A stretch of DNA of 64,000 nt from Kappaphycus alvarezii (Eukaryota > Rhodophyta > Florideophyceae > Gigartinales > Solieriaceae). Within the stretch, counting starts at the first letter, position 1. Every line of letters begins with the position of its first letter. The DNA is taken from NCBI GenBank assembly GCA_002205965.3, contig NADL03000024.1, positions 372,001-436,000 of the forward strand. The letters run 5' to 3'. The notes under the pieces are model-generated. The model was not told the DNA's origin. It searched no databases and saw only the letters and a list, made by a program, of their open reading frames with translations. Positions 27,613-59,044 of the stretch are shown here, piece after piece. The position numbers and the translations under genes were made by a program.

Positions 27613-27830
27613 TGATAAGATTGATCCAAAGTGTCCTCCCTTGGGCTTTCGTCTGGTATGAAGTCCTTTGCTCAGACACCTTATTATTAACTTACATTTG
27701 TCCCTGGTTCATGGTAGAAGGGCCGCAAACCTCCCGAGATACACACAGGAGGTGCAGATATTTTAGATCCGAAATTCCGTTGGATCCATTTGATCCAAAT
27801 TGGGCCCCGGTACGATATCATATAGTAACA
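27613..27830 (-). repeat. 3' LTR of the 5.35 kb copia element
   Basis: Shares GATAAGATTGATCC, TTCGTCTGGTATGAA, CATTTGTCCCTGGTTCATGG and CGAGATACACACAGGAGGTG with 32767-32965. It includes about 20 extra bp near 27775-27800. An inverted-type end (TG...CA) is kept. Confidence 0.85.
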
Positions 27831-28316: not shown

Positions 28317-31300
28317 TTACCGTTGCACTAGATGCCTCGTAATATTCAGCGACTTGGTCAATATGTCTGCCGGCTGCATAGCCGTTGGCACATACTCCAT
28401 CTTGATGATTCCTTTCGGAAACAGATCGCGAACATGATGGAATTTTAAGTCAATATATTTGCTGGCTTCGGAATCTTGTTCGCTCGATGCTAGAGATATC
28501 GCTGCTGTCGAATCAACGAATACGCGAACCAGCGGACCATAAGAAATGCTTTCAACGAAGGGTTGACAATTTAGAATCTCCCAAAAGAGTTTCTGCAGCC
28601 ACGAAACCTGCCTCGCGCAACAGGAAAGTGCGATGTACTCATCCTTGCTGATGAGAGGGCAATAAAGGTCTGCATATGGCTTTTCCAAAAGATTGGGGAA
28701 CCGCTGACGCTGACTAAAAAACCTGTAGTAGAGTTGCGTGTCTCTGGGCATCTCCCCAAGTCGGCGTCGGCGTGTGCCTGAAGTGAATCGAGAGTGATGG
28801 GATGTCGAGAATATTGAATGCCATAATTTTTGGTGCCAGCGATGTATTGAAGTATGCGTTTCAAGTACAATTGATGACGATGGGCTGGAGCGTGAACATG
28901 ACCAGCAAGTGCAGCGACTGCAAAAGAAATATCTGGCCGTGTACACACGGTAAGGTAGAAAGTCCACCGACCAAAGCGCGTTAATTACCATGGTCTCGGC
29001 GATTTAGAGCAGGTTCGTTGGGAAGCCCAGATGAAAGATCGACACGAGCCGGTAGCGGAGTGCGCACAGAGTTGCATTGCGCATATTCGAAGCGCTGAAG
29101 CAACTCCGATGCATATCTGGTTTGGGTAACATAGAGCCCCTGCGGCGAACGAGTAATCTCCCAACCGATAAAGTAATTGAGAGCGCCCAACAATTTCACG
29201 TCGAACGTGACTGAAAGTTGTCTCTTCACCGAGTCACACAATCGAGTGGAGTTGTGGACGAACTTGATAACGTCCACGACGACAGCCAAGATGACAAAGT
29301 TCCTTTTGCGAACTAGAAAGAAGATTTTTTTGTCGAGGTTAGAAATTTTGATGCACCAATCAAGAAGATATGTGACAAGAACGGAGCCCTATATTTGACG
29401 GGTTGTCTTGTTCCGTATATCGATCTCTTCAGTTGACAACAGTATCCGGGTTTTGATTCTCGACCAGTACTGTCTGTCAGTTGCTTCATGAATATCGGAA
29501 TTTCAATTTTCCCGTACAGGTATGCGCTTGCGATATCGGCTCCTTCTAGAATGAAGTCATTGCTAGCCGCAAACGATAATAGCATACGGATACCCTTATG
29601 CGTGGCCAAGGGTGCGCACATTTTCGGGATAAGAGTCAATAAAAGGAAGCTGCTTATCACCGCGAGCAACGCACCTAGCCTTGCGGAGGAATGAAGTCCC
29701 AACTTTGTCGAGGATTTTCAACCTGAATACCCACGTGTATGCCACAAGATGCATATCAGAGCGCCATTTGACGTAGCGGCAAGTTCCTCTACTCATTGGA
29801 GCTCGGTACTCTCTTTTCAATCGCGGCAGCCCATTTTGGGTCTTGAACGGCTTCTCCGAAGCTAAGAGTGAGTCCTGGGTCTGACATCATCCGCTTTCTA
29901 CAGCCAGAAAACAATACGGTGTTCAGCGGAACGTGGAATGACTGGAAGGCATGCACAAGCGCATCCTCAGCGGAACTGTCATCTCGGTTTTGTTTTTCGG
30001 TATGCTGTAACTCACTTTGACGAGCTAAGCCGTCCAACAAGGCTTTAACACTGGGGAGCTGCTCATTCTTTATAGATTTGAAGTCTTGGCGGAGATTATG
30101 CATGATAGTCTTCGTACTTGGAACATATACCCGAAACATCGTTTCTTCACTTTCCATGCCAACGAATTGGCCATGGACGGATCTCGCTAGGAGGTTCTTG
30201 TTAGGTTCAGTCGGCGATCGATAGACGAAGGCAAAGCCTGGCTGATCAAACATAGGGATGTTCGAAAATGTAATTCTTGTTCGAGGGTTCAATGCTAGAA
30301 TCGTAATGCGCCCGTTGATGCGACTTGCAGGTAAACGCTTGCGCAAGAAATTTCCGTGGTTGATGGCTCCCCTCATAGGTTGTCAGGGAGCTTGGCTTCG
30401 AAGAGGAACACTGTCCAACGTGCCCAATGTTCCTGAATAAGGCGCTCTGCTACTCTGTGAGGAATGATGCGGAGTATAATATAGCACAATGCCGTATTGG
30501 CGGCAAAAGTTCGTGACAATGTCCACAAATTTCTCTCCTGCTCTATCGGGCTTAACTTAAAAACGTGAGAACCCAACTAAAAGCTCTGAACGTGCCTCAT
30601 ATTCCACCAGGAGAAAGGATAGTTCTGCACGGGTTTCATTAGGAACGCATCGGAATTGGCGCTATTGTCATCAAGAACAGATAAGGTGTAACGATTTCCC
30701 ACTAAAGACGGAAGAACGAGGCCGGATACATCCATGTGTACCAGCTCCAATGGCTGAAAATTTTGCATGGATGATGGGAGAACGGGAGCACTTTTCATTT
30801 TCCCAGTTGCACACCCTACACATATACGGCTATCTAGGGCCTTTCTTGAAAAGAATGGGACATCTGGAAAGATGGTAGATTGGCGGAGGTATCTGGCTGA
30901 CTAGGGTGCCGGTACGGCAATAATATTACGAATTGCGTCTAAAGCAGTAGTATTGGTCTGAAATGAAGCAGAATGAGATTATCGAAATACAAGATACAGT
31001 AAACGTTGCTGAATTGTACAGATGGCTGCGTGTCCATCTCATGCCATAATTGCGGCCAGTCTAGGGATTGATGTTGGTTTGGTGCGGGTAGAAAAGCAGC
31101 GCAAATAGTTCGTAGAGCAAGAATATGAAGCACATATCAGTCCGTCCTTGCACTGTTTAGAGTGATTAATTTGACCAGATGACCGGAGGCGAAACATACA
31201 AAGCGAAATAGGCGACAGTATGGTATCGGTGTTCTCTCCTGGTGCGGCAATGTCGAACTCGGATTTTAAATTGATACGAAAGCAGCCCCACGGATAAAAT

Positions 31301-31492
31301 ATTCGTGTTGAAGTCGGGAGCATGGTAGGTTTCGACAAGAATTCCAGTGTGGAGAGGAATGCAAACTTGACCTTTTCCTACAACTGATGAAACACTCGCT
31401 GCTGCTTCCATATCTTCGACAGTAATTCGTTTGTAGGTGTTGAAGGAAGCACGTGAGTGAACGAAGTGGTGACTTGCACCGAAATCAATCAA
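28317..31492 (-). pseudogene. Copia pol: protease, integrase, RT, RNase H
   Basis: Protease near 31480: IDFGASHHFVHSR (canonical DSG altered to DFG), then NILSVGLLSYQFKIRV. Integrase: start near 30800 (FQPLELVHMDVSGLVLPSLV), C-terminal region 30376-29789 (PGFAFVYRSPTEPNKNLLAR, GQFVGMESEETMFRVYVP). RT: IRMLLSFAASNDFILEGADI, ASAYLYGKIEIPIFMK, and from 29289 VKRQLSVTFDVKLLGALNYF. RNase H: FVDSTAAISLASSEQDSEAS, YIDLKFHHVRDLF, VPTAMQPADILTKSLN, ending at 28317. The usual 4-domain copia order is complete, but each domain is cut by stops and shifts. The YVDD box is not readable in the present frame. Confidence 0.8.
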
Positions 31493-31739
31493 TCACGGCG
31501 TCGGGATTTTTCTAACCTTGTATTTTGGCTACGGTGCCCTTGAAATTAATTGATGCCATGAATCCATATGGTTGCCCGGATAGGCCTCCGTCTTGAGCTC
31601 CAGAATTTCCGGGGATGAAAGTACCTTAGATGCCTTGTGATTTCATTTGACTGAGATTTGCCTGTTGCAGAGATTGATGTCCATTAGGAGGCAGTTATTG
31701 AAAAGATGAATCCGTTCCTGGGTTCCAAGTATTATTGTT

Positions 31740-32760
31740 CCTAAAATGGTTTGAAAGCAAATGGCTACCACGGCCGCGACCGCGGCCTCTTCCGCGCCCA
31801 CGGTTCATACCTCGACCACCTCGTCCAACGCCACGTCCACGATTAGAATCGCCTTGCTGGTACCAATATTATACGGCAAATTGTCCGGGGGGCCACATAC
31901 GTAGCCCAGGTCTTTCTTCGAGACACGACAGTTATCACTCTTGAACCGTTTCTACAACACTATTACTGCCTCGATTACCATTAGCTTGTGTCATATTGGA
32001 TGATAGCTTGGGCTTAGTAGGCAATTCAGGACATGACTTGTTGAGACTTGGTTCTTCTTGCCTGCACTCTCTGCGCTCACTGCGTTCACCAACTTGTCAA
32101 ATTCCAATTCTTTTAGGTGAAACACCAAAGCGAGTGGGAAAAAGATTCCGGAAGCGTACGAAGCAACTTTGATGGCTCTTTGTCATTTACTTCTGTATCA
32201 TACATTTCAAGATTGCAAATGATGAACTGAAACTTGTTGACATGTTAATCCCAGTCCATGTCATCTGATAACTTCAGAAAATCAAGCTCTAAGCGTAATT
32301 TAAGTACTGCTTGTGCATTTGAGGTTGTAGAGACTCGTCCTAATTCCTCCAACGCTCCTTAGCGGATTTACTATCATCATAGACTAGCAACCTAGTCTTG
32401 CTTAGCAGTGAATCACCAAGGCACAAAATGATTGTGCTCTTGGCTATTGTTGATGCTTGACGCAAACGTTGATGCTGCGCCGGCGATGACAACCTGAGGT
32501 TATTCTGATAGAACATGTATATCGATGTCATCTCTCTTCGGTATGCATGTAACGGCGACACCAGAGAATGTAGTCTGAAGCGTTGCTGGCTTTGGCAGCT
32601 TTGTGATCGGATCTTGGTCCAGATGAGACATAATTCAATGCGTGTGAAAACGAAGTAGTTACAAGTGAATGTCCAAGCGATACGGTCGCACGCGTTTCGC
32701 ATTGCTGAAGGAAAAGGCAGACTACGATTTCCCTTGTTTTTAGTTAAGCAAGAAGCGATG
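31740..32760 (-). pseudogene. Copia gag with zinc knuckle and RGG-like tail
   Basis: Gag occupies the region between the primer site and protease. The N-terminal half (32760-32000) is badly broken. Near 31900 a damaged zinc knuckle (C-x2-C-G then a lost His) is followed at about 31850-31770 by an almost pure Arg/Gly stretch of about 24 residues (RGRGVGRGGRG... GRGRGRG). The knuckle is standard for gag nucleocapsid; an RGG-like extension is unusual and probably helps RNA binding. Confidence 0.6.
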
Positions 32761-32766
32761 ATACCA

Positions 32767-32965
32767 TGATAAGATTGATCCCAAAGTGTCTCCCTCGGGC
32801 CTTCGTCTGGTATGAATGTCCTTTGCTCAGACAATTTACTATTAACCCTTACATTTGTCCCTGGTTCATGGTAGCAGGGCCGCGCACCTCCCGAGATACA
32901 CACAGGAGGTGCTGATATTTTAGATCGAAATTACATGGATGCCGGTATGATGTCATATCGTAACA
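32767..32965 (-). repeat. 5' LTR of the 5.35 kb copia element
   Basis: Minus-strand start TGTTACGATATGAC, end CTTATCA, with the primer binding site adjoining. 199 bp, about 20 bp shorter than its partner at 27613-27830. Confidence 0.85.
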
Positions 32966-36182: not shown

Positions 36183-36424
36183 AAACGATCCGGCGCGAAT
36201 TTATTCCTTTCCGCGTAGCGAGACCAGTCGATGACACTAACTCGCAGCGTGGGTAGTTCGACTTAATCATTCGTAAAGGCCCATAGAAATACGTATCGAA
36301 GGCTTTCCACTTGCTCCCATTATCAAAAAACGCGTCGTGCGCCACCAACGCCTAGTATACAACTTCGAACTCCTTAACGTCTCCCTTGGCCTTACGGGGT
36401 TCGCTGGAATTGTCTAGCTCGGCA

Positions 36425-37372
36425 GCGAGAATGAGAAAGAAAACAAACACAAACTAAGACTTTCAGGGTGTTCCCTGTCCTCTTTTTATTTAAGAACACT
36501 GCGGCACAATAGCACAGCTCACCGACGGCGAGGATAAGTTGAGGTGGTACAGCGGAGGAATTTCCTTGGACGGCTGGACGGTATACTTTTCCTCCTGGTT
36601 TTAAGGCCGGACCGGGTTGCTTGGAATGCTAGAAACTTGAGAAAATTGAGTCCAAAGTACCCTGGACACAAGGGATGCAATATTGGGCAAGAAAAGAGAT
36701 ATAGTAGCGGGTCAGCAGTGCTGATTTTCTCCTTTGTAGATAAGGTTGTTTTCATAAAATCCAACCCTGAAGTTCCTACTTGTATATAGACGCCATAGTA
36801 CGGGGCGCGAAGTGTGAGTAAATATCACAGACGAAAAATGTAAGGGATAGTATATATTTGATGTAAAGGGGGAAATGAAAGGGGAACCAGGGCACATAAA
36901 CGAGCCTTTAGCCAAAGTTGCCGTTGGAATTGTTGTTGCAAAGGCGGAAATTGGCAGTCAAGTTCAGACCCAAAACCGAGGTGGCTGTTTAGTCTGGGGC
37001 CCTAGCGGCCAGGTAGGTATAAATGATGGTTAGCTAGGTTAGAATTATGTACGAATTCTGGGTAAGTAAAGTCAATTTCAGCGAGGTAATGGAGATCCAA
37101 GTTAGAGATGAGTAAAGTCGAAACTTGGGCCAGGGGTTCCTTTGTCCTGCGAAAATATCAGGTCCAAGTTAGCGACGAGTGGTCTGGACTGCCCGCCTTC
37201 AGGCCCTCCCGAATGAGCATACAGTACCAAGAGCAATTATCAGCGACGATCGAAAATTGGCTTTACTGTGGAGTACAATGCCTGTAAGTGGCAGTGCAAA
37301 AGATTGGATCATAAAAAGATGACTAAAATCAGCTCTGCCGGTGGAACTACCGTACGAATTACACTTTCAATA
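36425..37372. repeat. 0.95 kb repeated block, copy 1
   Basis: Homologous over its whole length to 58093-59044: ATGAGAAA then ACACAAAC/ACACACAA at the left, GGAATTTCCTTGGAC, GGGTCAGCAGTGCTGA, GAAGTTCCTA then TTGTATATAGACGCC, AAAATATCAGGTCCAA, AAAATCAGCTCTGCCG at the right. Here it sits inside gypsy pol, and in copy 2 inside copia protease, so it is a mobile unit of its own. It could be a solo LTR of an unseen gypsy family or a non-autonomous element. It contains no open frame with a motif. A TATA-like TATATATTTG lies near 36852. Confidence 0.75.
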
Positions 37373-37375
37373 CGG

Positions 37376-38060
37376 TAAATCATGAACTGGTCATATTTTC
37401 CGGCACGGGAGCCTCTACGATTTCCTTAATCTTGTCGGCATCTATCGTTACTCCGCCAGAATTGGCAGTATAACTGAGCAACTTCACTTCTGACTGAGCA
37501 AAGCTGCAATTGGTTACCTTCAGCTTACAATTCGCTTCATTGATCCTTCTAAACACTTCTTTGCAATGAGCTATGTGTTCCTCTAACGTCTTAGAGCGTA
37601 TTAACAATCGTACACATAAAAAATCACGAACAGTAGCCCGCGAAGAACCTCTTCCATCATCCTTTAAACGTCGCTAGTGCTTTCATGAGTCCAAACGGTC
37701 GATTTTGTACGTTCCATATCCAGAGACAAACCTCGTCTTTTCCTTGCAAGGCTCGGAAATCCTAACCTGGTAGTATCTTATATAAAGGCATAAAATTGTG
37801 AAGGACTCTGCGCCGGGGATTTAGTCGAAAATTTCTTCTATTTTAGGTAATGGCCAGCGGTCTGGCTTCATGGCCCAGTTCAAATTTCGGTAATCTATGC
37901 TGAACCTGTACCTTCGTCTTTCTCGTGGCTATAACTACCGGAATCGACCAGGCAGACCTTGACAACGTAATAGACTAGGCTTCCAATAGTTCCTTCACCT
38001 CTTTCCTTACTACGTCTTTATGCCTCGGCGGCATTCGACAGATTTTCGACTGTATCGGAG
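37376..38060 (-). pseudogene. Gypsy reverse transcriptase fragment
   Basis: Reads KELLEA, FSIDYRNLNWAMKPDRWPLP (palm start), YYQVRISEPCKEKTRFVSGY, YGTYKIDRLDS and then SKTLEEHIAHCKEVFRRINE with VKLLSYTANSGGVTIDADKI. This is standard Ty3/gypsy RT order. The YVDD region is shifted out of frame near 37630 (the sense reads close to a damaged FVRDFLCVRLL). Ends where the block begins. Confidence 0.8.
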
Positions 38061-38401
38061 TCTTGTCGTTCAACTCCAAAGAATGTACCACCGCAAATGA
38101 ACCGGCTCAAGATCGTGAATGTACCGCCCTATCCCATCTGTATTATAGAGCGCCTTCACCAGATTCTTCTGGTTATTCTCCTCAAGGTGGTCCAGCTTCG
38201 AAGCCCGTAAGGCAAATCGATCCAGACCAACCTCTTTCTCTTTCTTTATTTAATTCTTAGCAGATTGAGCCAGATCAGGCTCGTACGGTTCCTTTTTAAT
38301 GATGGCTAAGTTTGTTATCCAAACAATCACCACTCTCACTAGAAGATGAGGAAGAATGGAGAGTTTCCACATTATCTGAAATATTGGGATAAGTAAAGTC
38401 C

Positions 38402-38833
38402 TCACTGTTCGTCTGAGGTCCCGCTGATGTTGGACGACTCATTGATGAATGGTGACGCAACCTCGTCTTCCCCTATCACCGAAGTGAATTTCGGCAGGGC
38501 ATAAAAGATACGTGTCTGCAGGGATTCCGGAGTCGGACTTCTAGAGATAACATCGAAGGAAGCGTTGTTTAACACTAAGAAGTCTAGATACGCGACAATT
38601 AACCCGTAAGATACCGGTACTCTTTGAACATATCCTAGCACCTGTGTGACGGTTCCGTCAGATATCGTCACCTTACAGTCGGTCTCCGTCGGGGTGGGAA
38701 CCAACTTCTGACAGAAATCCCACGAGATGAGGTTGGGAACTTCACCCGTATCCAGAAGGGTATGGGTCTCTGTTCCATATAACTTCACAGCTATGAACTT
38801 GAGTCGACTTGACCCTTCCGAAGGATTAACCAT
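38402..38833 (-). pseudogene. Gypsy retropepsin-like protease
   Basis: A 143-codon clean frame with THTLLDTGEVPNLISWDFCQ: the aspartic protease motif D-T-G is kept, but the next residue, normally Ala, is Glu. CKVTISDGTVTQVLGYVQRV and FLVLNNASFDVI (usually LG followed by Asp) follow the retropepsin fold. The Ala-to-Glu change beside the catalytic Asp would probably inactivate it. Confidence 0.7.
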
Positions 38834-39471
38834 CGAGGCCTGTATTATCCCTCTTGGATAGCAATTGCTAAAACCTTCCTGGCCTCCTCGTATCCCTGCG
38901 CAATATTTGCCCGAGATTTATCCTTGCGGCAGCGGGGCCAGTTCGGTAAGAAATGTCATACTTCCCTACGTGATCTCAGATTCCATTGGAATTCTTTTTC
39001 AACCTTCGGTTTCCTCCTTTTTTTCTTCCTCCGAGGGTTAGGGGTAAAAATAGGTGTACGGTCACCAGGGGCATTTTTTATGATGGCATCAATATCCATC
39101 ACATTTTCTCTTTGCTGTTGTGGAGTGCCTGTCCATCCACCCGCTCTTCCTAGCAGAAAAAGGCCCTTTTCACGAGATTCCCGAACGCAGAGATGTTTTC
39201 ATCATCCCTCGGGGCCTTCATCTTCAATTCTTCTCCAGACTCAGGCAGGACCATGGCAACTCCGCTCGCCGATCACCACACGAGGGCTCTTGAACCAGCA
39301 TTTTTCCTCCCACAATTAAAGCAGGATGTCTTTGCGAGGGTCGTGCTGGAACACAGCCGACCCATTCCCTTCTGATTGTAGTAACTGCAATAATAATGTG
39401 AGTCCGTCCTTACCGACGGCAACGTGTTGTCAAATTGTTTCTTCAAAAGCAAAGATAGTTCAACAAAAAGA

Positions 39472-40074
39472 CTAGTAAGCTGATCCATTTTTTTTTCCAG
39501 ATGTTGTAAACTGAGTGCATCTGGCCTTTGGGGGATCTTCTTCGGCGTTCCACGCAAGGAGGCTCTTTGATTCTCTTCTCTGCGGATCGTCTTCTGTCAA
39601 AATGAAGAAGTCCATAGTGGCATTCTTGAGCCTCTTATAGTCCTCAGGGACTCTAAACATTACAATCTGAGTCATATTTTGGGTTTCTGCAACTGACTTC
39701 CGAAGCCGGCCAAAAAGAGCTGTATCATTGAATCCAACTCTCTTATTAAGGTCGTTCAACTGCGTTAAGAAGCTCCGCAAGTCCTTTGGGCCCAATCCGG
39801 CGTTAATATTGTTGTAGAGTTCTTCTTCCGGCTTTGGGGTCTTCCCAAACTCCTCGATGAGCTTGGCTTTTACGTTCGAGTATTTCTTGGCCTCCACCAT
39901 CAACGCTTCCTCGTGCACAAAAGCCTCGTAGTAATGCTCAAACGCTGCGCTCTCGAGGTGGCAGAGGATCTGGAATGCCTTTTTCTCGCCGCTTTTTCCG
40001 CGCATAAGTACATTCCCGTACGCGAAACTGAAGCGACCAATGTCCGAAGAAAGGGGGAAGCTCGAAAGAATCAA
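39472..40074 (-). pseudogene. Gypsy gag fragment
   Basis: A 200-codon frame with EKKAFQILCHLESAAFEHYY, YSNVKAKLIEEFGKTPKPEE and SFLTQLNDLNKRVGFNDTAL, the capsid-like helical pattern of gypsy gag proteins. Downstream (about 39400) NCGRKNAG remains of a zinc-binding motif. The frame opens with an alternative start codon at 40074, so the true start is unknown. Confidence 0.65.
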
Positions 40075-40080
40075 TCGTCA

Positions 40081-40493: not shown

Positions 40494-41000
40494 TTAGTCT
40501 TGGGTACTGGAAGAAGTGGGGAGACCAATTGAAACAAAGGAGAGAAGAGCCGCAAAAATTCCACCCAAAATACCCGGCAGGACAAGACCCCCACAGCTTG
40601 AAAAAACAGGCTCCTTCGCCAGCCATTTAGAACCTTGCGAAGGATGCGACGGCGACAAGCTGCACCGCTGAAGGGCTACCTTGACGAAAACCATGTAGCG
40701 CCCTTTACAGCGCCGTTCGAAAAGCAACGCCATCCTTCCGCGCCATTCCCGGTTCGTCCAGCGCGCTCCGGGGGCAAGAGGTGGCGGTACTGTCGACATG
40801 GATATTGACGACATCGGTGCAGCGAGAGCGCAGCGGTCGCGGCATGTCGATCTGCAAGGGGAAACGGGCTAGACGAGTGGAGGTGGGCGCGCCCGCACCC
40901 GACGACATGTCGCACGGTGCGGGCGCCGAGAGCGGCGAAATGTTGAAGCCTCGCAGTGGGTGTCCGGGGAGTTGCTTCCGAACTGATGGGGGAAATTTAA
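40494..41000 (-). CDS. Unknown protein A, hydrophobic C-terminus, frameshifted
   Basis: Minus-strand frames give STVPPPLAPGARWTNREWRG, RMALLFERRCKGRYMVFVKV and a C-terminus GGLVLPGILGGIFAALLSFV that would span a membrane, ending at 40494. A diverged relative lies at 43980-44480 in the same orientation: RAPSARGTTWERRVRTALPL aligns with LAPGARWTNREWRGRMALLF, and both regions contain the DNA string GCGGGCGCCGAGA. The family is unknown. A start is not fixed; frames overlap upstream to about 41000. A GTACTGTAC unit lies just upstream at 41014-41033. Confidence 0.4.
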
Positions 41001-41194
41001 TTTCAGGGTACACGTACAGTACAGTACTGTAAGAGTCCTACTTTCATACCTTTGAGGGAATTGTTTAGGTATTTCAAGAAGTGGAAAGTGAGGTCATTTC
41101 CTGAAGCCGTCATGGGGGAGTACAGTACTGTACGATAGTTTCTTTCGGGCAACCGAGAAAAATTACGAATGCACATCCAGTGTGAGCTTGAAAC

Positions 41195-43453: not shown

Positions 43454-43541
43454 CGGTTTGCAGGAAATGAGTTTATTTGAATTCGCAAATCTTCATTTCG
43501 CACAGTAGCGGGTTTCTTCGAAGCAACAAACAATGCAGTAC

Positions 43542-43765
43542 TGTTACAACTTGACAATGAAGTTGTAAAGCACGGACCAGGACTGATAGTAACACAATCA
43601 CTGATGCCTGTCTGGACCTGGAGACCAGGTCAGGGGCGCTTATATAGACCTTTGCGGGGCTCTAAATGCAAACTAGGTACGTGGCTGACAGAATACTACT
43701 GTACGTGAATATGCACTTTGCTGACAATACACGTGTACGTGCCACGTACTAATTGAACCCTAACA
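43542..43765 (-). repeat. Left LTR of the gag-only element
   Basis: Begins TGTTACAACTTGACAATG and ends AATTGAACCCTAACA (TG...CA). Contains GGCGCTTATATAGACC, a TATA-like box on the plus strand, 15 bp after GACCTGGAGACCAGGTC, a palindrome. Confidence 0.9.
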
Positions 43766-43979
43766 TTCGTACCTTGTGCACACCTCGCGTACAATTAAAA
43801 AAATTCAAACAAATACAGAGGAAGAAACTTTACTTCATTGAGTATCTACAACAACAATAAAAATCAACACAAAAAACACGCAAATTCAATCACGCGAAAA
43901 ATTAAGTGGGGGGGGGGAATCTTTTAATGTGTTCAATAACCTGAACCGTACAGGTAGTGGTTACACTTAGAAGACTAAG
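43766..43979. other. Internal region beside the left LTR
   Basis: AT-rich with a ten-G run (about 43908-43917). No coding motif. Under minus orientation a polypurine tract is expected at about 43766-43780 but the sequence there is mixed. Confidence 0.45.
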
Positions 43980-44480
43980 AACATCTCCAGGCGACGGCTG
44001 AACCATCACCCACTCCAACAAGGACAAAGGGGGACTAGAAGAAAATTCCACCATCTAAATACGGGATCCAGACAGCTTGAAAACCTTCTAGTGTAAACAT
44101 GCGAACTTACAGACGACGACAACCAAGACGAAGAAAACTCCGGACGAACGAACTTGCCGACAGACTGACAGGGCTGCGCAGACCACGTTCCTTCGGAGAC
44201 TGTGACAAAGACAGTAGGTGAAAAGCGATAGGAAACAGCGAACTTTGGAAACCCTGTTCGAGTGGAAGAGCCGTCCTTACACGTCTTTCCCAGGTCGTCC
44301 CACGTGCGCTGGGGGCGCGGGACGACAATCCACTCGAAATAACCATCAGCAACAACGGTGCAGCAAGAGATCTTGAGTCATGGTTGTTCCGTCGCCAGGA
44401 CATGCGAGCGGACATAGATCCGGCGCCCGCGCCAAGTTCAGCGCGGGCGCCGAGAAGAGCGAAAACAAGCTTGAGGAGGT
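43980..44480 (-). CDS. Unknown protein B, relative of protein A, frameshifted
   Basis: Minus-strand frame SMSARMSWRRNNHDSRSLAA, then APLLLMVISSGLSSRAPSAR and TTWERRVRTALPLEQGFQSS. A stop at about 44105 is followed in another frame by a hydrophobic stretch near 44060 that corresponds to the C-terminus of protein A (40494-41000). The relation is clear but distant, so this is not a recent copy of the neighbour. It lies inside the LTR pair. Function unknown. Confidence 0.35.
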
Positions 44481-44550
44481 CAGTAAGATAGGGAGGACGG
44501 TGGGGACCGCCAATGAAAATTAAGTAGCTCGTTTTCCCTCAGACTCAATC

Positions 44551-44925
44551 TTGCCAGATTCTCAATTCGAAAAAATCCCTTTCACCAAATTACTTCTAAA
44601 GTCTCCACCGCGGTTCCCAATCGGTCCTTTCGTTCCCGCGCTCAATAGCGGTGCCTCATCCGCCATCGTCTCCGCTGCACCAAGTTCCGTAGCCACACCA
44701 CCACCGAGCCCAACCACGCCAGCGCCCTTATCTAACGCTTCCGCTCCATCTCCCACAGTAATATTAACCGACACAGTTCGCTCCCGTCTCAAACTGCCCA
44801 GCTTCAGCAGCAGACCTATTGCTGTGCACTTCCAGGTGACCCATCCACTCACGAGGCCTCAATCAACCTCAGTGTCCCAATCAACTACCAAGGGGGGGGA
44901 AATTTGGGGTGTTTTTAATGCATGA
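44551..44925 (+). other. Pro/Ser/Ala-rich open frame
   Basis: 125 codons opening with a non-ATG start, rich in Pro, Ser, Ala and Thr (for example SSVATPPPSPTTPAPLSNAS). It may be an upstream piece of the zinc-finger-like gene or non-coding C-rich DNA. No motif. Confidence 0.25.
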
Positions 44926-45143
44926 AAAATATGGTCAGCTGTTCCCTAAGGGATGTCGTGATGGTAAAGGCTTACAATATAAAGGGTTGGCGGGAAGTTG
45001 TCAAAACGCTAGAAAACTACCAAGGTGAATTCCCAACACGTCACGACCAGCCCGTGCATCCATTATCTCTGTCCAACTTCACCTTTCCTTTGCATCTTTT
45101 TATCCACTTGTCCCTTCTGTCCCGTACCCGCAACCGTAGAGCC

Positions 45144-46760
45144 ATGCCTCCCCCCCCGCATCAATCACCGCAGCCGCCTTTGCCAAATGCAAGTCACTCG
45201 GGCTATTGCCTGAGCTATACCACCAACTTATTCCAAGCATACAGATGATGTCGATGCTGCGGATGACCTTATGACTCTAGCCAGGCTGTCGAGCCGACCT
45301 CAGGATATACGAGCCGCACTCGTTTCGTCGACATTTCCCTATGACCAAATTACGAATTTCCAGGTCCCTTCAGTCCTTGATTCAATTTGTCCCGGATGCA
45401 GAGCAGGATCGGTTGACACGGGTGCCAATATTGCTATGTCCATCTCACTCAAGCCGCAACGAGCAATTGAGAGGCAAGTTATGGTTCCATCCCATCCGGG
45501 ATCCATCCTCGATCGCTCCGCACTGCTTGTTGAATCAGCACTCATCGGCATTGCTGCAGAACAATCCACCACCCTTTCCGCTAAAAGTACCGCAACCCCT
45601 GGCTCCCCAGTCTTACGGAGCGGCGCCTTAAGCAATACCACACCCTCAGGTTATGCTACAGGGGACATCATTGCATTCGGCGTTTCCGAGGTTATTGCCA
45701 GGGCGGAACTCGGTTGACGGTCAGTCTCATCCGTTTGGGACGCAGTTGATGCAGTGTATGGGAGAGGTCCCACGTCTACTCAAATTTGCATTCCCGATTT
45801 CACTTAGCCGAAGGCGAAGCAAATTGCTACTGCCACTCATGGTGGCCAGTTCTCCCCACATCCCCTTCTCCCGCTTGTGCTGCTAGTTCCTCAACGTCAC
45901 TCCAACTATCCAAACAGCAATCCGTCGCGTCACTTATTAACGCGAACGTAACGTCCGGAAAGCCTGGAGGGAATCCTCAACCTCCGTCGCGACGCTGCCC
46001 GGGCTATCCTCCCTGATTTGCAGGAGTGTGTTCCCGCTGCGGTACAATCGGAAATTGCACCTGTCGTCAAAGCTCATTGTAAGATGAGACTACCCTTGTC
46101 AGGACCGTCAAGCGGCCTCCTATCAAGTGGACTTCTGCAGGCAACACATTGCCATACGCCTCGTGGCGAGAAAATATGGACGTGCACACGTTGCATTCGA
46201 AAGTTTGGGTCAAAGCCTCACATGAAGATGTACATTGAAACGCCGCACTCAAGGATGCGCGTTCACCTGTGCTACTGTGAAAGCATTGGGACTTGATACA
46301 ACCTCACTTGGCGCCTGGAGAACGCATGAGCGAACCCCAACGAAGCATGTTTGCATTGTGTACAAGAGTCCTGTCGCGGTGTTGTCGAGCCTGGCCCGGC
46401 ATCAGCGAACTCTCCCAACCCAACTGCAGGTGTTGCCGCTGTCGTTGTACTGGAGATGCCGAGTTTCTTTCTACTTCCGCTGTGTCTCGAGCAGCGGGCT
46501 GTGCTCGATCTGCATCCTTTGCAACGAAAATTCTGGGCTCCCGCATTCTCCTGAGTCGCACGAACTACACGATGCGCTCGCTTCTTGGACCTCTTCACTA
46601 TCCTGCAACTTCCCAGTCTACCCTTTCGGCTGTCAACCTCGTCGTTCAACCGCTTCACTCGAATGAGGGCGGAACTACTCCATCGAGAGAGAGATGCCTT
46701 ACAGTGGGCCCTCTTACAGTGTCACATCCTACAGCACCGATTACGGCCCGGGTACAGTAA
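45144..46760 (+). pseudogene. C2H2 zinc-finger-like gene inside the LTR pair, frameshifted
   Basis: From the ATG at 45144 several frames give AFAKCKSLGLLPELYHQLIP, LARLSSRPQDIRAALVSSTF and a Ser/Ala-rich middle. At 46150-46260 a zinc finger reads GEKIWTCTRCIRKFGSKPHM with MKMYIETPH after it: C-x2-C and the final His are present, but the first His is Tyr. A second finger-like unit follows (YNLTWRLENA with a shifted HERTPTKHVC, Arg in place of His), and a third with SSLARHQRTLP. C2H2 fingers bind DNA, so an origin as a host transcription factor is likely. Loss of two zinc-binding residues and many shifts suggest decay. It lies antisense to gag within the element. Confidence 0.45.
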
Positions 46761-46807
46761 CCATTGAGGCCCGGGTACAGTAGCCGTGGAGGCCCGGTAA
46801 CCGTGGC
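46744..46807 (+). repeat. Triplicated 23-bp unit
   Basis: CGGCCCGGGTACAGTAACCA then TTGA; GGCCCGGGTACAGTAGCCGT then GGA; GGCCCGGTAACCGTGGC. The third unit is shorter. Directly downstream of the zinc-finger-like gene. Confidence 0.85.
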
Positions 46808-47559
46808 TTACTGTAAGCATACCTCAGGCGTTCTGCATTAGCAACCACTAACCTCCCGTCGGTGCTTCCGTACCATCAGTTTCAGCAAGGCTTGGACGAC
46901 GAGCGGTTGATGCGATTTTATCGCGGACGCGAGCCTGGCGACTTGAACTAATGCCGGTCGTACTGCCATGCTGCCTCGACCGGTCCTTAGGGGCGGATAA
47001 CGGTGAGTGCAAGCGAGTATTTCCGGCAGACAGGGTGTCGTGGCGAGCAGTCTTTGTCTTGACTGGAACTGGCCGCGCAATTTCTTGCAAGAGACCGGCT
47101 TGGCTAAGGGCGAAAACGGGCTTCCGCTAGTAGCTTCCTTGGGACGTCTCGTAGGGATCATTTGCACCCATCCCGTGCGTGCAGGGATGAGGCAGGCAGC
47201 TGAAAACACGTCCTACCCAGCGGGGTCGCTGGGCCGGTGTCCGACACCTAGGGACCCTTGCAATGATGTAGGGGTACCTGGCCCATCTTGGTTCGCGCAA
47301 GATGTGGTTAGCGATGAAATCGCGTCCCACCTACAGGGTCTGTAGGGGCCTGGAGTCGACTCCTGAAGAGTGTCCGAAGCTTGTAGCGTAGTCTCCCAGT
47401 GGGAGTCCGACCCGTCCTGTGCGAGCAGTTTATCACCCTTTGGGTACACGGCTGTCATACAAACGCACCACCTTCCGGTAATCACTTTCCGGGGTCCATC
47501 TCGGCGACCTTCTTCCGTAACTTTTTACCTTGAAATGAAGCTCTAATTAACACGTCTTC
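46808..47559. other. Interior of the LTR pair, no gene recognised
   Basis: GC-rich with overlapping frames on both strands up to 124 codons; none carries a motif. This is where pol would be expected next to gag in a complete minus-strand element, and it is not there. Confidence 0.5.
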
Positions 47560-48796
47560 TCATTCCTCCTCAATATATTGACCGGACTGCCACCTCTTCA
47601 TCGTCAACCATCCCCTGCCACCAAATCGGCTCCCGACAAGCGCAAACATCCTCACGTTGTTTTTTACCTCCTCCCGTGGAGCCATTACTTCTCGACTGGG
47701 GCTTTGGACCCCCCAGGCCTTCCTCCTGTGGGCTTTACCACGATAGCGCCGCATCACGCGTTCTTCTTCTTTCAGCAGTCCCTAACCATATGGCCCTTTT
47801 CGTGGCAGTAATAGCAGGTTACTTGAGGGTAGTTATACCCTTCTTCTCACGCGGGACTCCCCTGTATGGCTTGACTGGCTCTTGGACTCGCCGGACACTT
47901 TCCCGACTCGCAGACTGACTACTTCTGCAAGCCTAGAAATGGTACTCACCACGGTGTCGTAGTCCCCTGATACCAGAATTGCTTGCTCCTGGAGACTCGC
48001 GGGCAGACCTGCTTTAAAGCGGTTCACCATGATTTCGTCTGAGATTGGAACATGCAGAGTCATGGAATCAGACCTTAAGCGTTCTCCGAAAGCGGACACC
48101 GTTTCATATTTCTGATTCCATTTAATATTGAAAAACTTTCTTGCAATGTACTTAGCTGCCTTTGTTGCAGTCTAGCTCCAAGTGGTCCCAGAGCTCATCG
48201 GCGTTGGCATTCCAGTATACTCGCCACACTCTCGAATACTCTAGCCGAATCTCTTTCGAATGCACAAGACATAAGGAGCCTCTCGTCACTCTCCTGAACT
48301 GGAAAGTCCTTCAACAGGCGGTATAACGTTCTTTTAGCATCGAAGAAAGAGCTGTCTCCAGCCTCACGACATCGAGAGTTCTCGAGAGAGCTTTTGTATA
48401 TTTTGTGGGCTACGTGTACAGGATAAGTGCCGCGGGAATCCTTCTTTGAATCAATCTAGTCTTCATCTTCTTCGGCCGCCATCTCCGTATGGGCCTCTTC
48501 TGCGTTGGATCCGCAGAATGACTCCTTGGAAGCCCTTTTATCTGTTCAAACTTACTGGTTAGCTGAACTATCTCCTTCATTACAGCTGAAATGCCATTGA
48601 CCGCTCCATGGAGTTCCTCCGTTACCTCAACAGTGCACTGATTGTCTTGTGGCGAGGCTTCGGCGTTGATTTCTACCTCTGCGTGATGCGTATCCGAGTC
48701 TTGAGAAATCGAATATCGTGGATGAAGCTCAGCACCTTCCTGACCTTGGTCCGGATTTTCTGAATGTGGATTCTCTCTGGTTCCCGGGCGAACCAT
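47560..48796 (-). pseudogene. Gag of the LTR-bounded element
   Basis: Minus-strand order: N-terminal acidic/helical part from the ATG at 48796 (MVRPGTRENPHSENPDQGQE), a capsid-like part (TLYRLLKDFPVQESDERLLM near 48320, SAFGERLRSDSMTLHVP, then DEIMVNRFKAGLPASLQEQA) and a zinc knuckle CYYCHEKGHMVRDC (C-x2-C-x4-H-x4-C) at about 47815. This is nucleocapsid order. It is followed by a basic tail to 47560. Shifts lie near 48410, 48100 and 47830. Such gag proteins package the element's RNA. Confidence 0.65.
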
Positions 48797-49163
48797 GCTT
48801 ATTTCTTTAGGCGAAACTTGACCTTCTCAGTCAGCAGGTTGCGGCCCTGGTTCTGACTTTCGACTTTTTCCGAGGACGTCTCCTCTTGAACCGGAGTCTG
48901 ATCGCCTCGTGCGCAAAAACTTCTTTCCGGGAGTCCCCTCCCTTATTATCAGCTTCGAGCCTTGTTTAACGTATCTACGAGAAGTCTAGATCCCGTGAAT
49001 CCGAAAAGTGCCCTTCACGGACGCACCAAGAAGATGTTTTCTTGTAATAAAGCCGGCCTTGCCTTGGACGTTGGATGCCTTCCCAGATTCTTAAGACTCT
49101 CGTACCTTGATTGCACCCTCGCAATGGCTAGCTCGGGTAGTCGTTCCGGTAAAATCGATTTTA

Positions 49164-49388
49164 TGTTACAACTTGACAATGAAGTTGTAAAGCACGGACC
49201 AGGACTGATAGTAACACAATCACTGATGCCTGTCTGGACCTGGAGACCAGGTCAGGGGCGCTTTATATAGACCTTTGCGGGGCTCTAAATGCAAACTAGG
49301 TACGTGGCTGACAGAATACTACTGTACGTGAATATGCACTTTGCTGACAATACACGTGTACGTGCCACGTACTAATTGAACCCTAACA
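49164..49388 (-). repeat. Right LTR of the gag-only element
   Basis: Matches 43542-43765 apart from one extra T in CGCTTTATATAG. Followed by the AGTAC duplication, which overlaps the last A of the LTR. Confidence 0.9.
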
Positions 49389-49463
49389 GTACTGTACAGT
49401 GGTGAAAATAAAGATACGGCAGGTCGGTTTCTTAAAGGGGCAAAATTTTGGGAAATTTACTCA

Positions 49464-49496
49464 GTCGGTGTACACTCAAGATAACTAATGAATAAA
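49464..49496 (+). repeat. Tail motif of the non-LTR family
   Basis: CAGTCGGTGTACACTCAAGA followed by TAACTAATGAATAAAG, a shortened version of the tail motif at 53219-53258. It lies between the LTR element and the hAT terminus. Confidence 0.4.
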
Positions 49497-49567
49497 GATT
49501 TCTCGCTCTTACAGTAGTTGGAAATTAAGAAATGTCATTGCCTGCCGGGTTACGCATTCGTTCAAAC

Positions 49568-52047
49568 CAGGGTTGGGGGAAACGTGTCACTGAAAGGTAC
49601 ATGGACAGGTACATGTACAGGTATATTAGACATGTACCTTCCGAAAATTTGCTAAAAATCTCAAAAACGGTACGTGATATGTACCCCGGTACATGTTATT
49701 TTCGAAACACTGTAATGTACCGATGCCTGCCCGGAGCTCGAAAAATATTGTAACGTATCGTTACATGTACCGGCCAAAATGGTCGTTTTTGGCAAAATGG
49801 TCGGTACATACAGACGTATCTTCGACAGTGCTGCCATACTTTCGACTTCATTGCCCCTTCCATTCACAAAATGAATCCCCCACAACCGGAAGGACGACTC
49901 AATGATGACGAAGTAAACAAGGTCCCGAGCTCACTTTCTGCAAATGAAATTCTCAGAATCGCTCAAAAGACGTTGTCGACAAACAAGAAGTCTGGAAAAA
50001 AGGCAATTCTCTGGGGCTTTTACACAAAGCATGACAATAACACGTATGCTTGTATTGTTTGCAGCAAAATAAGCGGAGCGTAAAGGACTTCTGAAGTTTC
50101 AGAGCAACATGGGTACTAACGCACTACGAAGGCACTTGAGGGAAAATCACAAGGACCTTTTCAAGCAGTTCGAAGAATCCCAAACATCTACCGAGCCCCT
50201 AAGAAGAAGCAGAAGAAACTTCAGACTTATCTTGATACCCATCAGAAATACAATCCCACCTCAGATACTGCAGTGGAAGCAAACAAACGATTGATTTTGT
50301 TAATAGCAAAGGCAGGACTTCCCTTTTCGTTGGTTGATCATCCAGACTTCCGGAGATATGTTCACTTCTTGAACCCACGTGTATCGATCCCAGACAGGAA
50401 AAATTAGCTGATAAGCACATTCCGGCGTTTTCGAAGAAAGTGGAATTGGATCTCGTGATGCCACAGTTATCAAAATTGGACTCCGTTTCGATCTCATTTG
50501 ATCTATGGATGAGTCGAGGATGCGAAGACATATTTGACTTGATCGCACATGGAGTCGATGGAAACTTCAAGCAGACAAGAGTTCACCTAGCACTTATTCA
50601 ATGTAACAGTACAAGAGGTGAATCTCTACACGATCTTCTGGTTGAGCAGCTGGAAAAGTTTGGAATTAGGGACAAAGTTTTCGCGTGTGTCAAGGATGGG
50701 GGTGCGAATTTGAGGGCATGCACGAACATTATAAGGTCATCTACCTCTTTCAGTGCAGCGGAAATTGGAAGTTGTTTCAGTGGAGTTTGCTTTGCCCATA
50801 TCATTTCTGGGACATGCAATGCAGCTTTATCTAACAATGTGACAGACGGCCTACCGCTCATTGATTTTCGCAAAGTGCAATCCGCTTTGCAGAAGTGCAT
50901 AACTTGGACAAAGAAATCTTCGAAAGGGCGCAAGGAATGGATTGAAGCTTGCAAATATTTGGATGTCAATCCCAGACTCATGCCGACCCCAGTCAAGACT
51001 AGGTTTGTCAGTGTTCTGGTGATGTTTCGAATGATGCTCTCGTACAAAGAAGTTGTTCGCAAATGTTTTGGAACTCAAGCTGATCGTAATCTGCGCAACC
51101 GAGTACCAAGTCCTGAAACATGGGACATTGTTCAATGTGTTGTCGAAACACTTGAACAACTTGTGTTTTCCTGCCTTCAGAGCCAGAAGAAGACGTGGAC
51201 CGTCAGTGAGGCTGTTGCACATATTGCAAGTGTGTATTTGAAGTTTAAGAACAACTGCAAGACTATAGTTCCTGTGGCTTCAGATGATTTTGACGCACAG
51301 TTAAGTATGCTTAAGGCCAAAATGTCCTCTTCTGTGGTTGAATCACTTAGCAATGTGTTGGATCCGTTCTTCGAAATAACTCCATTGAATGGCGCCTATG
51401 TGCATCATTATCTTGCTGTGGTTTTCGATCCTGAGTTTAAGGATCTGAAGTCTACTCTTATGCGTCTACATCAGAGTGATCCAGGCAATGCGCGATCACT
51501 AGCAAAAAACTATGATGAAAAAATAATAGTACCTCTTATGGTAAGCATGAGGGAACAAAAAGAATCTGACTCGGTTCTGGATGTGGACGAGGCAGGAGAC
51601 ACTAATTCAAAAGCCAAGACAGGGGAAATAGAAGACTGCTTTTTGAGTAACGCAGATTCAGATGATACGGATGCTATTGTTAAGTCTATGGTTTCCGAAC
51701 TTCGCTTGTTTCGATCAGAGCCCTTCACGAAAGGAACTGACAAGTACAGCTGGTTATTGAAGAAGCAATCTTTGTTTCCGACAGTTGCAAAGCTTTGTCA
51801 ATTCTTTTTGGGTATTCCGGCGACTCAAATTGAAAATGAACGCATATTCAGCTTGGCGGGTAGAATTTGTAGTCCACTTCGTAACAGAATCACAACTGAC
51901 AACATCAATAATGTTGTCACAATTTCAAAGAACTATGATGAAGATTTTGATGTTTATAATCATGTTAAGTCAATGGAAGAGTTTAGTGACTATCTTTTGA
52001 AGATAGAAGATAATGCTTTAGATGACAAAAATACTGATGATGAGTAA
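49568..52047 (+). mobile_element. hAT transposon, 3' end not found
   Basis: The left end reads CAGGGTTGGGGGAAACGTG, a hAT-like CAGGG terminus. It is followed for 200 bp by many GGTACATG/CATGTACC units in both orientations, which look like subterminal transposase-binding repeats. The transposase gene follows. The matching inverted terminus was not seen after 52047, where within about 100 bp non-LTR element sequence begins; the right end is probably deleted. Confidence 0.75.
49871..52047 (+). CDS. hAT transposase (BED finger plus hAT dimerisation domain)
   Basis: Cut-and-paste transposase acting in the nucleus. The ATG at 49871 gives MNPPQPEGRLNDDEVNKVPS, then a BED-type finger with YACIVC and GTNALRRHLRENH (C-x2-C...H-x5-H). 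The catalytic RNase H-like core starts LDSVSISFDLWMSRGCEDIF (first Asp), followed by FACVKDGGANLRACTN. The C-terminal dimerisation domain has KKQSLFPTVAKLCQFFLGIP with ATQIENERIFSLAG (catalytic Glu region) and PLRNRITTDNINNVV. From 50440 to 52047 the frame is open for 535 codons, the longest in the window. Upstream, three single-base shifts (near 50080, 50205 and an A-run at 50405) separate the BED part. Total about 725 residues, normal for hAT. If the shifts are errors, this is an intact transposase. Confidence 0.88.
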
Positions 52048-52149
52048 AAGAAGTGCTTAGCCCGAAATCCCTATTGCATAGTTCCCGGTACTGACATCTG
52101 GCCATTAACAATGAGTGACGTTTAATTTCTAATCCTCGCCTTTGGAACC

Positions 52150-53258
52150 TTGGCTACGAAAGCTATTTCCATTGCCAGGATGGGAAAGATATAGCTCCAG
52201 GTAAAACCAAGGCGGGTCCTCAGACTAGAATTAAACTCCAAACGACAACCTACAACCTCTGGAACGACGTTCCCAGCTATACAGCTCACCGTCCCGAAGC
52301 CACACGTCGTCAGATACGCGGTCTAGGTTTTCCGTACTCCGAGGCCGCTGCGTTTCTACAAGCGCATCCGACTATTGCGACCAAAGTCTCTGATCCCATT
52401 GGAGCATCATGCTCCGTCGCCACCTCGGTCTTCTAGTATACACGGACTCGATTCCGCTGAAGTGTCATCACTGCCAGCAGACGTTAGATCTGTATGGAGT
52501 CCATGCGGCTGACCTCTGCCCCTCGGTGTTTGGCCGCCTAAACCGGCATAACTCCATCCGTAACGCCCTCGCATATCATATATTCCGCGCTGTGGATTTG
52601 GACTACAAGTTCGAAGTCCCTCTGTTAATTCCTGAACTGATTTTAGGCCTGCAGGCCTCCTCGTGCAACCCCGGCCCCTGCCATCGGCCCCAAGCAAAGG
52701 CCAATTGCCTGTGATGTTACTATTGCCTCGCCGTTCAAACAGGCATCTGTCAAGAAAGCAACGAAAGCCGCCGCAGGCGCCGCTACGCAAGCGTACCGCA
52801 ACAAGGTCCAGGACCTCGAGCGTAAGCTCTCTAGGAAAACGTTTGGGTGTTTTACTGTTGGAAGATATTTCCGACCTATCCCATGGTTTTCCAGACAACC
52901 GCAATCGACTCAAAAAGGGTATACCTACAGCGTCTAGGTGCCTGTATTATCACATGGCAACCGTCACGCCGGCTGAATTTCACATTCCAACCGCTTGCTT
53001 TCGACTCCCTTGGAGTGGCGTCCCCAGCCACTGCACTGTTTCTGGAAACGTTCATTCCCCGGATTGCGACCAGATATCACACCTCTGATGCCACTGTCCG
53101 CTCGTGAATCTATCAGCGCATCAGCTGTGTTCTGTGGTCCTCGGTGGCTATGGCCATCATTTCCCGTGCCCCACTGCACGTAACCGATGTTCACCATCCA
53201 CTTAGTTCTTAACCAATAGTCGGTCAGTGAGTGTACACTCCAGAAACATTACGAGTAA
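52150..53258 (+). mobile_element. 3' part of an endonuclease non-LTR element
   Basis: Plus-strand relative of 9500-8572. AHRPEATRRQIRGLGFPYSE and AAAFLQAHPTIATKVSD match the region before the zinc knuckle. LKCHHCQQTLDLYGVHAADL then CPSVFGRLNRHNSIRNA is the knuckle itself. IACDVTIASPFK lies near 52720, the ERKLS motif follows, and FQPLAFDSLGVASPATALFL leads to the C-terminus. The RPD part of the endonuclease is out of frame. The 3' tail contains GTCGGTCAGTGAGTGTACAC at 53219. 5'-truncated, as usual for this class. Confidence 0.8.
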
Positions 53259-53469
53259 AATATTATTACTATTTGGTGTATTTGCGAAGAAATTAAGTAC
53301 ATGATTCAAAGCTTGGCACACGTACAAAACGTGTAAACATACGTCTGACACAGAAAGAAAACTGAGTTCAATATGTAAGAAAATAGATACTTTACGTGCT
53401 TTATCAACAGACTACGGAAGTGCAGCGTACGGGGCCACTCAACTTGACTGAATGATAATTTTTATTCAT

Positions 53470-58092: not shown

Positions 58093-59044
58093 CAGCCAAT
58101 GAGAAACCCAATACACACACAACAAGACCCACAGGGTGCTCGCTGTCCCTCTTTCTCTGTAAGACCCTGCGATGCAGTAGCACGGCGCGTCGACAGCGAG
58201 GAGAAATGGGGTTGGAAGAGCGGGGGAATTTCCTTGGACTTCTGGACTATATACTTGTCCTTCGGGTTGTAAGGCCGAGCCGGGGTCCGCGGAATGCTAG
58301 AACCTTGATAAGGATAGATTCCAAACAATCGTATACACCAAGGGTGTAATGTTAGACAAAGAAGATGTAGTAGTGGGTCAGCAGTGCTGAAAATCTCCTT
58401 TGGAGAGAAGGATGTTATCACCAACGACAACCTTGAAGTTCCTATTTGTATATAGACGCCGGAGTCCGGGGCTCCAAGCGTGAGTAACTATCACAAAAAA
58501 ACAAAAAAAGGGGTATTTTAATATTGGATAGAGAGGGGGAAATAGAAAGGGGGACCCGGGCGGATAAACGTGGCTATAGCCAAAGTTGCCGTTGGCAAGG
58601 TTTCTGCAAAGGCGAAAGTTGGGAGTCAAGTTCAGAGCCAACACCGGCGTGACTGTTTAATTTGGGGCCCTAGTGGCCATGTAGTAATAAGTAATAGTTA
58701 ACTAGGTTAAGGTTATCTAAGACGGCGGGGTGAGTGAAGTTAGGGTCAGTTAGGGAGATCCAAGTTAGAGATAAGTAAACTCGAAACTTGGCCCAATAGA
58801 TGCCTTTCGCATGCGAAAATATCAGGTCCAATTTGGGGGCCGAGTGATCCAGATTTCAAGCCCTCAAGCCCCATCGGGTGAGTATACAGTACCAGGAATA
58901 ATAGTGGGCGACAAAAGAAAATTGCCCTTACTGTACAGTACAGTACAGTGCCTGCTGGTTAACAGTGAATCAGATCAAAAAAAGATCACCAAAATCAGCT
59001 CTGCCGATGGCAGTACAGTATGAGTGCCAATTGCACTACACACC
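58093..59044. repeat. 0.95 kb repeated block, copy 2, inside copia protease
   Basis: Second copy of the block at 36425-37372, here between the start of the copia protease region and its continuation (HHGTFNIKVNKNKKLCIPVL at 59042). It contains a GTACAGTAC run at 58929-58950 that the first copy lacks in full (TACTGTGGAGTAC there). Confidence 0.75.

Follow-up and report, generated by a model that had tools for sequence, protein, structure and literature searches.

One question raised by the genome of the red alga Kappaphycus alvarezii is how an element framed by a pair of nearly identical long terminal repeats (LTRs) came to hold a gag-like gene and, seemingly in place of pol, a zinc-finger-like sequence. 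The element lies in a window of 64,000 nucleotides (positions 372001-436000 of contig NADL03000024.1, assembly GCA_002205965.3) and is called the focal copy in the following; the whole assembly of 336,021,096 bases in 884 contigs was searched for its family. A sequence-only reading had regarded it as a non-autonomous retroelement with captured sequence and as a candidate for something undescribed. The present analysis leads to another explanation, namely that the focal copy is very probably a single insertion of a multicopy Ty3/Gypsy family, present in a pol-deleted form and with its sense on the minus strand. It has a deletion junction and a target site in common with other members of the family, bears two insertions of its own, and carries a zinc-finger relic that has decayed.

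Results

The LTRs at 43542-43765 (224 bp, the 3' LTR in gag sense) and 49164-49388 (225 bp, the 5' LTR), both read on the minus strand, are direct repeats that match at all 224 aligned positions and are distinguished by a single 1-bp gap, in agreement with the earlier statement that they differ by one base. They start with TGTTA and finish with TAACA (TG..CA) and are bracketed by a common target duplication, as had also been claimed, which consists of the 4 bp GTAC at 43538-43541 and 49389-49392. A 5-bp duplication AGTAC was rejected, because it requires an LTR trimmed by one base. The TG..CA ends of these direct LTRs and the 4-bp duplication around them correspond to the termini of Ty3/Gypsy elements (4-6 bp duplication), as is also true of the copy L017, which is flanked by the 4 bp CACC.

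Inside the LTRs, coding sequence that resembles gag and includes a CCHC knuckle, recognized by eye, extends over 47775-48826 on the minus strand and is split over more than one frame. It comprises an amino-terminal piece (48413-48826), a piece in a different frame (48198-48455), a further piece (47836-48171) and the zinc knuckle itself (CYYCHEKGHMVRDC, 47775-47816). The proposed gag on the minus strand was therefore confirmed in its likeness, but it is broken in several frames, with 9 frame-changing indels and one stop relative to the gag of the copy L009, and the Pfam scan assigned no gag family to its pieces. Comparison with the gag of a neighbouring element gave an E value of 0.18. The PDB search with a 112-amino-acid gag piece (best E 1.2) and the predicted fold of this piece (mean predicted local distance difference test score, pLDDT, of 47.7) were not used.

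The absence of pol from the focal interior, stated earlier from the letters, is supported by Pfam and tblastx. Of 87 open pieces with at least 40 amino acids, 75 were scanned (12 were left out) and none had a pol domain, the sole match at E<=0.1 being DUF6532 (0.048), and tblastx of the interior against the 64-kb window did not reveal pol either. The Pfam result is weak by itself, because in the control, a neighbouring broken Ty3-like element, RVT_1 reached only 0.0017. This neighbour (36400-40077, minus strand) has a gag-like open reading frame (ORF; 39475-40077) and traces of protease and reverse transcriptase (RT), and its part 36430-37373 is 74% identical to 58098-59039. An Rfam scan of the window gave nothing, and no matches were obtained among viral contigs, for which the LTR pattern and the gag piece served as queries, or among plasmid records.

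The missing part was found in relatives of the focal copy. A search of the assembly with the focal LTR, in which 40 of the 606 candidates from a first look were scored, gave at least 41 matches, which makes this a multicopy family. Besides the focal locus, 12 LTR pairs, ten longer stretches at other LTR places and eight at places of the zinc-finger block were fetched; 31 loci, the focal one included, have a readable interior, and four others (L021, L023, L024, L025), with an LTR plus flanks or an LTR severed from its interior, stand outside these 31. The place of L023 falls inside L043. The copy L012 (7,963 bp, LTR 97% identical to the focal LTR) is complete across the deletion junction at 47569-47572 (minus strand) and has 3,238 bp of protease-RT-RNaseH-integrase between the bases that are joined at 47569/47572 in the focal copy. 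When seven pieces of L019 and three of L012 were scanned with Pfam, 5 of the 10 had a match and the other five none at 0.01; in L019 the domains RVT_1, RT_RNaseH, Integrase_H2C2 and rve follow one another as in Ty3, and RT_RNaseH was also seen in L012. The order RT-RNaseH-integrase of Ty3/Gypsy elements is hence present in pol-bearing relatives, these domains being absent from the focal copy, and the missing part occurs in a longer relative whose LTR and interior match, as expected of an internal deletion. All or part of pol lies beyond the zinc-finger block in 8 of the 31 loci (L012, L019, L039, L040, L041, L044, L045, L046); L041, L044 and L045 are without parts of it, and in L039, L040 and L046 it is cut by the edge of the fetched stretch. 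With pol present at the junction in these loci, the idea of an undescribed kind of element had to be given up, and what remains of the earlier proposal is a non-autonomous LTR retroelement with extra sequence, its pol deleted and pol-bearing relatives present in the same genome.

The focal junction occurs in 10 of the 31 loci (focal, L009, L010, L011, L013, L015, L016, L017, L029, L043), for nine of which the bases were read, whereas L043 was called by spacing only; L009-L011 miss 8 bases beside it. A junction like the focal one and an identical 14-base right flank characterize five truncated pol-less copies (L031, L032, L033, L035, L036). Because the right flank is common and a flank repeat is found at equal distance in three of them, these loci are probably duplicates of a single insertion, by segmental or larger-element duplication. 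Other losses of pol include a second deletion common to L020, L030 and L034, in which about 300 bp of pol are kept, a third, separate one in L014, and the form of L018 and L037, which retain the 3' half of pol and may represent one event because their flanks are alike. L038 and L042 are other fragments; the latter shares a contig with L034, of which it may be the second half, separated by an insertion. Short microhomologies that are rich in G, with a length of 9 nt in L018 and L037, are found at the pol-deletion junctions, where the reverse transcriptase would have jumped between templates. An origin of the focal deletion from spliced RNA was rejected, since its edges are not GT..AG by eye.

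The zinc-finger block (44516-47569) is common to the focal copy and pol-bearing relatives, in which it is placed 3' of pol, between pol and the 3' LTR, and it contains a decayed C2H2 relic on the plus strand, antisense to gag. The C2H2-like gene proposed earlier on this strand stands as a likeness, with a best E of 2.1e-5 in a phmmer search against PDB C2H2 chains, but not as an intact gene: nothing was found at E<=1 in the Pfam scan, Tyr replaces His in one finger (CTRCIRKFGSKPHMKMYIETPH, 46183-46248), and other finger-like stretches are out of frame. Among the latter, CIVYKSPVAVLSSLARHQRTL at 46352-46414 was identified by eye, is cleaner in L045 and had no PDB match. A true zinc-finger origin of the relic is supported by the divergent copies L039, L040 and L045, because these keep cleaner C2H2 fingers by eye. 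The assembly holds at least 54 C2H2 matches (150 of 1483 candidates scored; for the search with the block itself, 40 of 176). The zinc-finger gene of the family would be of host origin. In L039 and L040 the block is tandemly doubled, the first copy being more diverged (76-78%) and bearing a clean C2H2 finger by eye.

Could the antisense zinc-finger ORF be a working accessory gene, as in Retand or Grande? Its position between pol and the 3' LTR and its orientation agree with such a role, and L045, one of the copies with cleaner fingers, alone keeps an open relic frame of 217 codons. However, an open frame under constraint was not found. Synonymous changes were counted, here and for gag, in codons with a single change, gapped codons being skipped. 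In 20 comparisons with L045 the synonymous share was 0.19-0.48, against a neutral 0.28, and p<0.05 was reached in one of them (second copy of L039, p 0.035, uncorrected), which favours the accessory role; in eight further pairs the share was 0.12-0.47 and p<0.05 was never reached. Moreover, in 12 of the 13 paired copies the relic is broken or frame-split by eye, L018 being without it. With no selection detected, the relic appears to be a decayed passenger now, and a working gene is unlikely.

Somewhat less likely still is a history in which the block first entered a pol-deleted copy and reached pol-bearing copies later by recombination. On its 3' side the focal deletion does end within a few bases of the block edge, and recombination in the family is indicated, but one simple deletion suffices for the focal form. 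Furthermore, the block shows 72-92% identity across its pieces in the divergent pol-bearing copies L019 and L045, and it is therefore judged to be old in these. Taken alone, the focal copy has the look of a non-autonomous element of an undescribed kind that captured a zinc-finger gene instead of pol, as the sequence-only reading had it. This is very improbable, because the same block adjoins the 3' side of pol in pol-bearing copies and pol occupies the focal junction there. Nor is the zinc-finger part present in all copies: the pol-deleted L018 and L037 are without it, and pol loss and block presence are therefore independent. Finally, independent insertions of two solo LTRs on either side of unrelated DNA, both of which the favoured target could have put near GTAC, can be dismissed, because neither LTR has a duplication of its own at its inner edge and because inner edges of the same kind, together with related interiors, recur in the 12 other pairs.

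Two insertions were seen in the focal copy only. Next to its 3' untranslated end (43766-43907, minus strand) lies an insertion at 43908-44515 (608 bp, that is about 598 bp plus the 10-bp duplication AAAATTAAGT), and a second one with the duplication AACTACCAAGG is located within the zinc-finger block at 44894-45014. Both sites, flanked by duplications of 10 and 11 bases in the focal copy, are empty in 7 of 7 copies checked; L014 bears four different extra bases at the site of the first. The longer insertion includes what had been taken for a relative of a gene 3 kb outside. The DNA similarity of 44237-44464 with 40697-40940 has a score of 44, where 100 shuffles reached 20 at most, but it is an interspersed repeat inserted in the focal copy, because it sits in an insertion that is absent from all seven copies checked and that is matched next to L034 at 98% over some 120 bases. 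A coding meaning of the similarity at 44.2-44.5 kb was rejected, since third-position bias is absent by eye and the similarity lies in the insertion.

An open gag of 354 codons is retained, without pol, in L009 and L011. For the comparison of gag among copies, 15 pairs were compared on the open L009 frame; L011, L015 and L018 were aligned to it and left unpaired. The synonymous share of L009 was 0.38-0.59 with the focal copy, L013, L014, L016, L017, L019 and L020, compared with a neutral 0.24 (p 0.007 or less), while the excess was not significant with L012 (0.36) and L010 (0.25). L016 paired with L012 gave 0.52, and five pairs drawn from the focal copy, L013, L014, L016, L017 and L020 gave 0.20-0.29. 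The pattern across the 15 pairs therefore places constraint on gag somewhere on the line of L009 and L012, and none is visible in the focal line. The gag of L012 differs from that of L009 by 14 substitutions and 19 frame-changing indels, and L015 differs from L016 by 69 gap openings and 33 mismatches. Because these close copies differ by more indels than substitutions, the excess in L012, L015 and L016 suggests uncorrected assembly indels.

Another marker is the segment 45356-45683, which is kept in the focal copy, L014, L019, L020, L029, L030, L046 and others. It is deleted with one common junction in L009, L012, L013, L015 and L017, and is also missing in L010, L011 and L016. All four combinations with pol exist: pol-less copies with the segment (focal, L029) and without it (L009 and others), and pol-bearing copies with it (L019, L046) and without it (L012). 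If each deletion arose exactly once, recombination follows; otherwise the same deletion was repeated. This suggests recombination between pol-plus and pol-minus RNAs. In partial trees, L012 is adjacent to the pol-less L009-L011 on either side of pol (coverage on the gag side 0.75 for L018 and 0.48 for L019, with L018 missing from the 3' side). With 40 of 252 candidates scored, the pol DNA of L012 recurs at an identity of 98% or more in at least 16 other places, and ten 5' ends read at such places represent a sister group. Its LTRs of about 296-299 bp match the focal LTR in part (83% over 110 bases, 80-91% over 45 bases), and its leaders are 89-91% alike. L012 may combine LTRs of the focal type with pol of the sister group, which would be the likeliest present helper for the pol-less copies. 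Because the latter sit in flanks of their own, they would have been mobilised in trans by pol-bearing relatives.

Among the 13 paired copies, GTAC is found on the left of 12 and on the right of 11; the exceptions are L017, with CACC on either side, and L019, with GCAC on the right. At ten further loci GTAC stands on the right in 8 (L034 has GTAT, L038 has GTTA), and the left flank, read in 3 of them, has it in all 3, with five of the eight right-flank loci probably being one insertion. In the sister group, where left flanks only were read, GTAC is present in 10 of 10. In the window, GTAC starts at 275 of 64,000 positions (0.43%), compared with 152 expected from a first-order Markov model. The motif AGTACWGTAC occurs 19 times in the window, with 0.05 expected from the same type of model, for example at 1593-1653, 19532-19598 and 41014-41133. 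No literature on the family or its GTAC habit was found; GTAC itself was not a query, so that this is no proof of absence. The focal copy adjoins the terminus of a hAT-like element (49389-53363), which starts with GTACTGTACAG and has an ORF at 50338-52047 with Dimer_Tnp_hAT. A deletion derivative of this element, in which both its ends are fused, is located at 63255-63389.

The position of the primer site is occupied by a conserved 16-nt stretch without TGG (49148-49163, minus strand), the first 14 nt of which, directly inside the 5' LTR in gag sense, form a perfect palindrome. The palindrome is perfect in 20 of 23 copies, five of which are probably one insertion, and is matched at 12 of 14 positions in L020 and L029 and at 10 of 14 in L030; in the sister group it is perfect in 10 of 10 copies. 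By a small margin it is the best conserved 14-column stretch in the first 200 (0.997 against 0.87-0.994, 23 aligned rows). The 16-nt stretch has 97 exact occurrences in the genome (control 0), and of 20 occurrences read, 18 come immediately after a terminus resembling that of the family LTR, many of them diverged; because the pattern was searched exactly, these numbers give no measure of conservation. At L070 the stretch is present in both orientations, 8 bases apart with TGTTAACA between them, which resembles an LTR reduced to terminal inverted repeats. At L077 (531-546) it follows an LTR-like end, CATCA, without similarity to the family LTR, perhaps in an unrelated LTR family that uses the same primer. 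No transfer RNA (tRNA) was seen in the surroundings of the occurrence at L076, and no tRNA gene was found in the window or at L077. Simple self-priming by the RNA 5' end, which is the Tf1 model, was rejected, because the complement of the stretch was not seen in the LTR by eye. The window also contains an LTR element at 27613-32932 (minus strand) with 91% LTRs and the primer site TGGTATCA, copia-like by eye, whose ORF at 28317-29003 had no Pfam match.

Discussion

The following course of events would account for the focal copy. An ancestral LTR-gag-pol-LTR element would have gained a gene with C2H2 zinc fingers, inserted in antisense behind pol and ahead of the 3' LTR, and this gene has since decayed to a passenger. 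About 3.2 kb, from the protease start to past the integrase, would have been lost from RNA or complementary DNA, most likely when the RT jumped at a short G-rich microhomology. The deleted form, which kept LTRs, leader and gag region, would then have multiplied many times with enzymes given in trans by pol-bearing relatives, and reverse transcription would have recombined pol-plus with pol-minus RNAs. The integrase of the family would have placed the focal copy at GTAC, at the terminus of the hAT-like element. Two small mobile sequences entered the focal copy or its parent, and its gag is broken.

Several points weigh against this explanation. The recent insertion claimed earlier keeps a single support, the near-identical LTR pair, and LTR gene conversion could give the focal copy a false look of youth; its branch measures 4.3% on the gag side and 1.3% on the 3' side of the tree despite the mismatch-free LTRs. 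The closest other LTR is 97% identical to the focal one (40 of 606 candidates scored), and a parent copy was not found there. Frame damage may in part be assembly error. Among the loci read, none of the pol-bearing copies showed an intact reading frame, so that the helper is deduced from the pattern of copies. In addition, a tRNA-type primer site (TGG) next to the 5' LTR was not seen in the focal copy or the relatives read, nor was a polypurine tract next to the 3' LTR seen by eye in either sense. Some known LTR elements self-prime or use internal tRNA parts, and the missing tRNA primer site therefore leaves the membership in Ty3/Gypsy intact.

Similar architectures have been described. TR-GAG elements and their movement in Arabidopsis are the subject of PMC8704663; they resemble the focal family in having two LTRs, a gag region, no pol and a presumed copying in trans. 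Paired LTRs around an intact gag ORF, with pol missing, are found in L009 and L011 but not in the focal copy, where gag is broken and an extra 3' block with the zinc-finger relic is present. PMC7264820 deals with ORFs that lie in antisense between pol and the 3' LTR, and PMC11963269 with Retand. In comparison with Retand and Grande, the long region between pol and the 3' LTR, the antisense gene of DNA-binding type and the non-autonomous members are alike, whereas a TRP28 domain is found there and a decayed C2H2 relic without detected selection occurs in the focal family. The transduction of host gene pieces of the Bs1 type, as named in a passage of PMC7264820, likewise brings gene-like non-retroviral sequence into an LTR element; unlike in that account, the block of the focal family is antisense and common to much of the family, including pol-bearing members. 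The anatomy of the element is thus already covered by the described TR-GAG, antisense-ORF and Retand systems, and the element is of an ordinary kind.

Collectively, what looked like a zinc finger in place of pol is resolved as a pol deletion beside an old accessory-gene relic. The several pol deletions, the spread of one deletion over branches and the four-way combination of markers reveal, within a single genome, a likely parasitism of pol-less on pol-bearing LTR elements. Two traits of the family are more interesting, namely its GTAC target and the palindrome at the position of the primer site, and these, if confirmed, would matter to retrotransposon specialists. One speculation, to which we assign only a small chance, is that the whole lineage, with and without pol, primes without a tRNA 3' end by means of the palindrome, one element RNA, or a host RNA of identical sequence, acting as primer on another, and that its integrase is specific for the palindromic tetramer GTAC. 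If this were true, the RNAs of the family would pair, prime and recombine via one sequence, and the frequent pol-minus recombinants would be explained.

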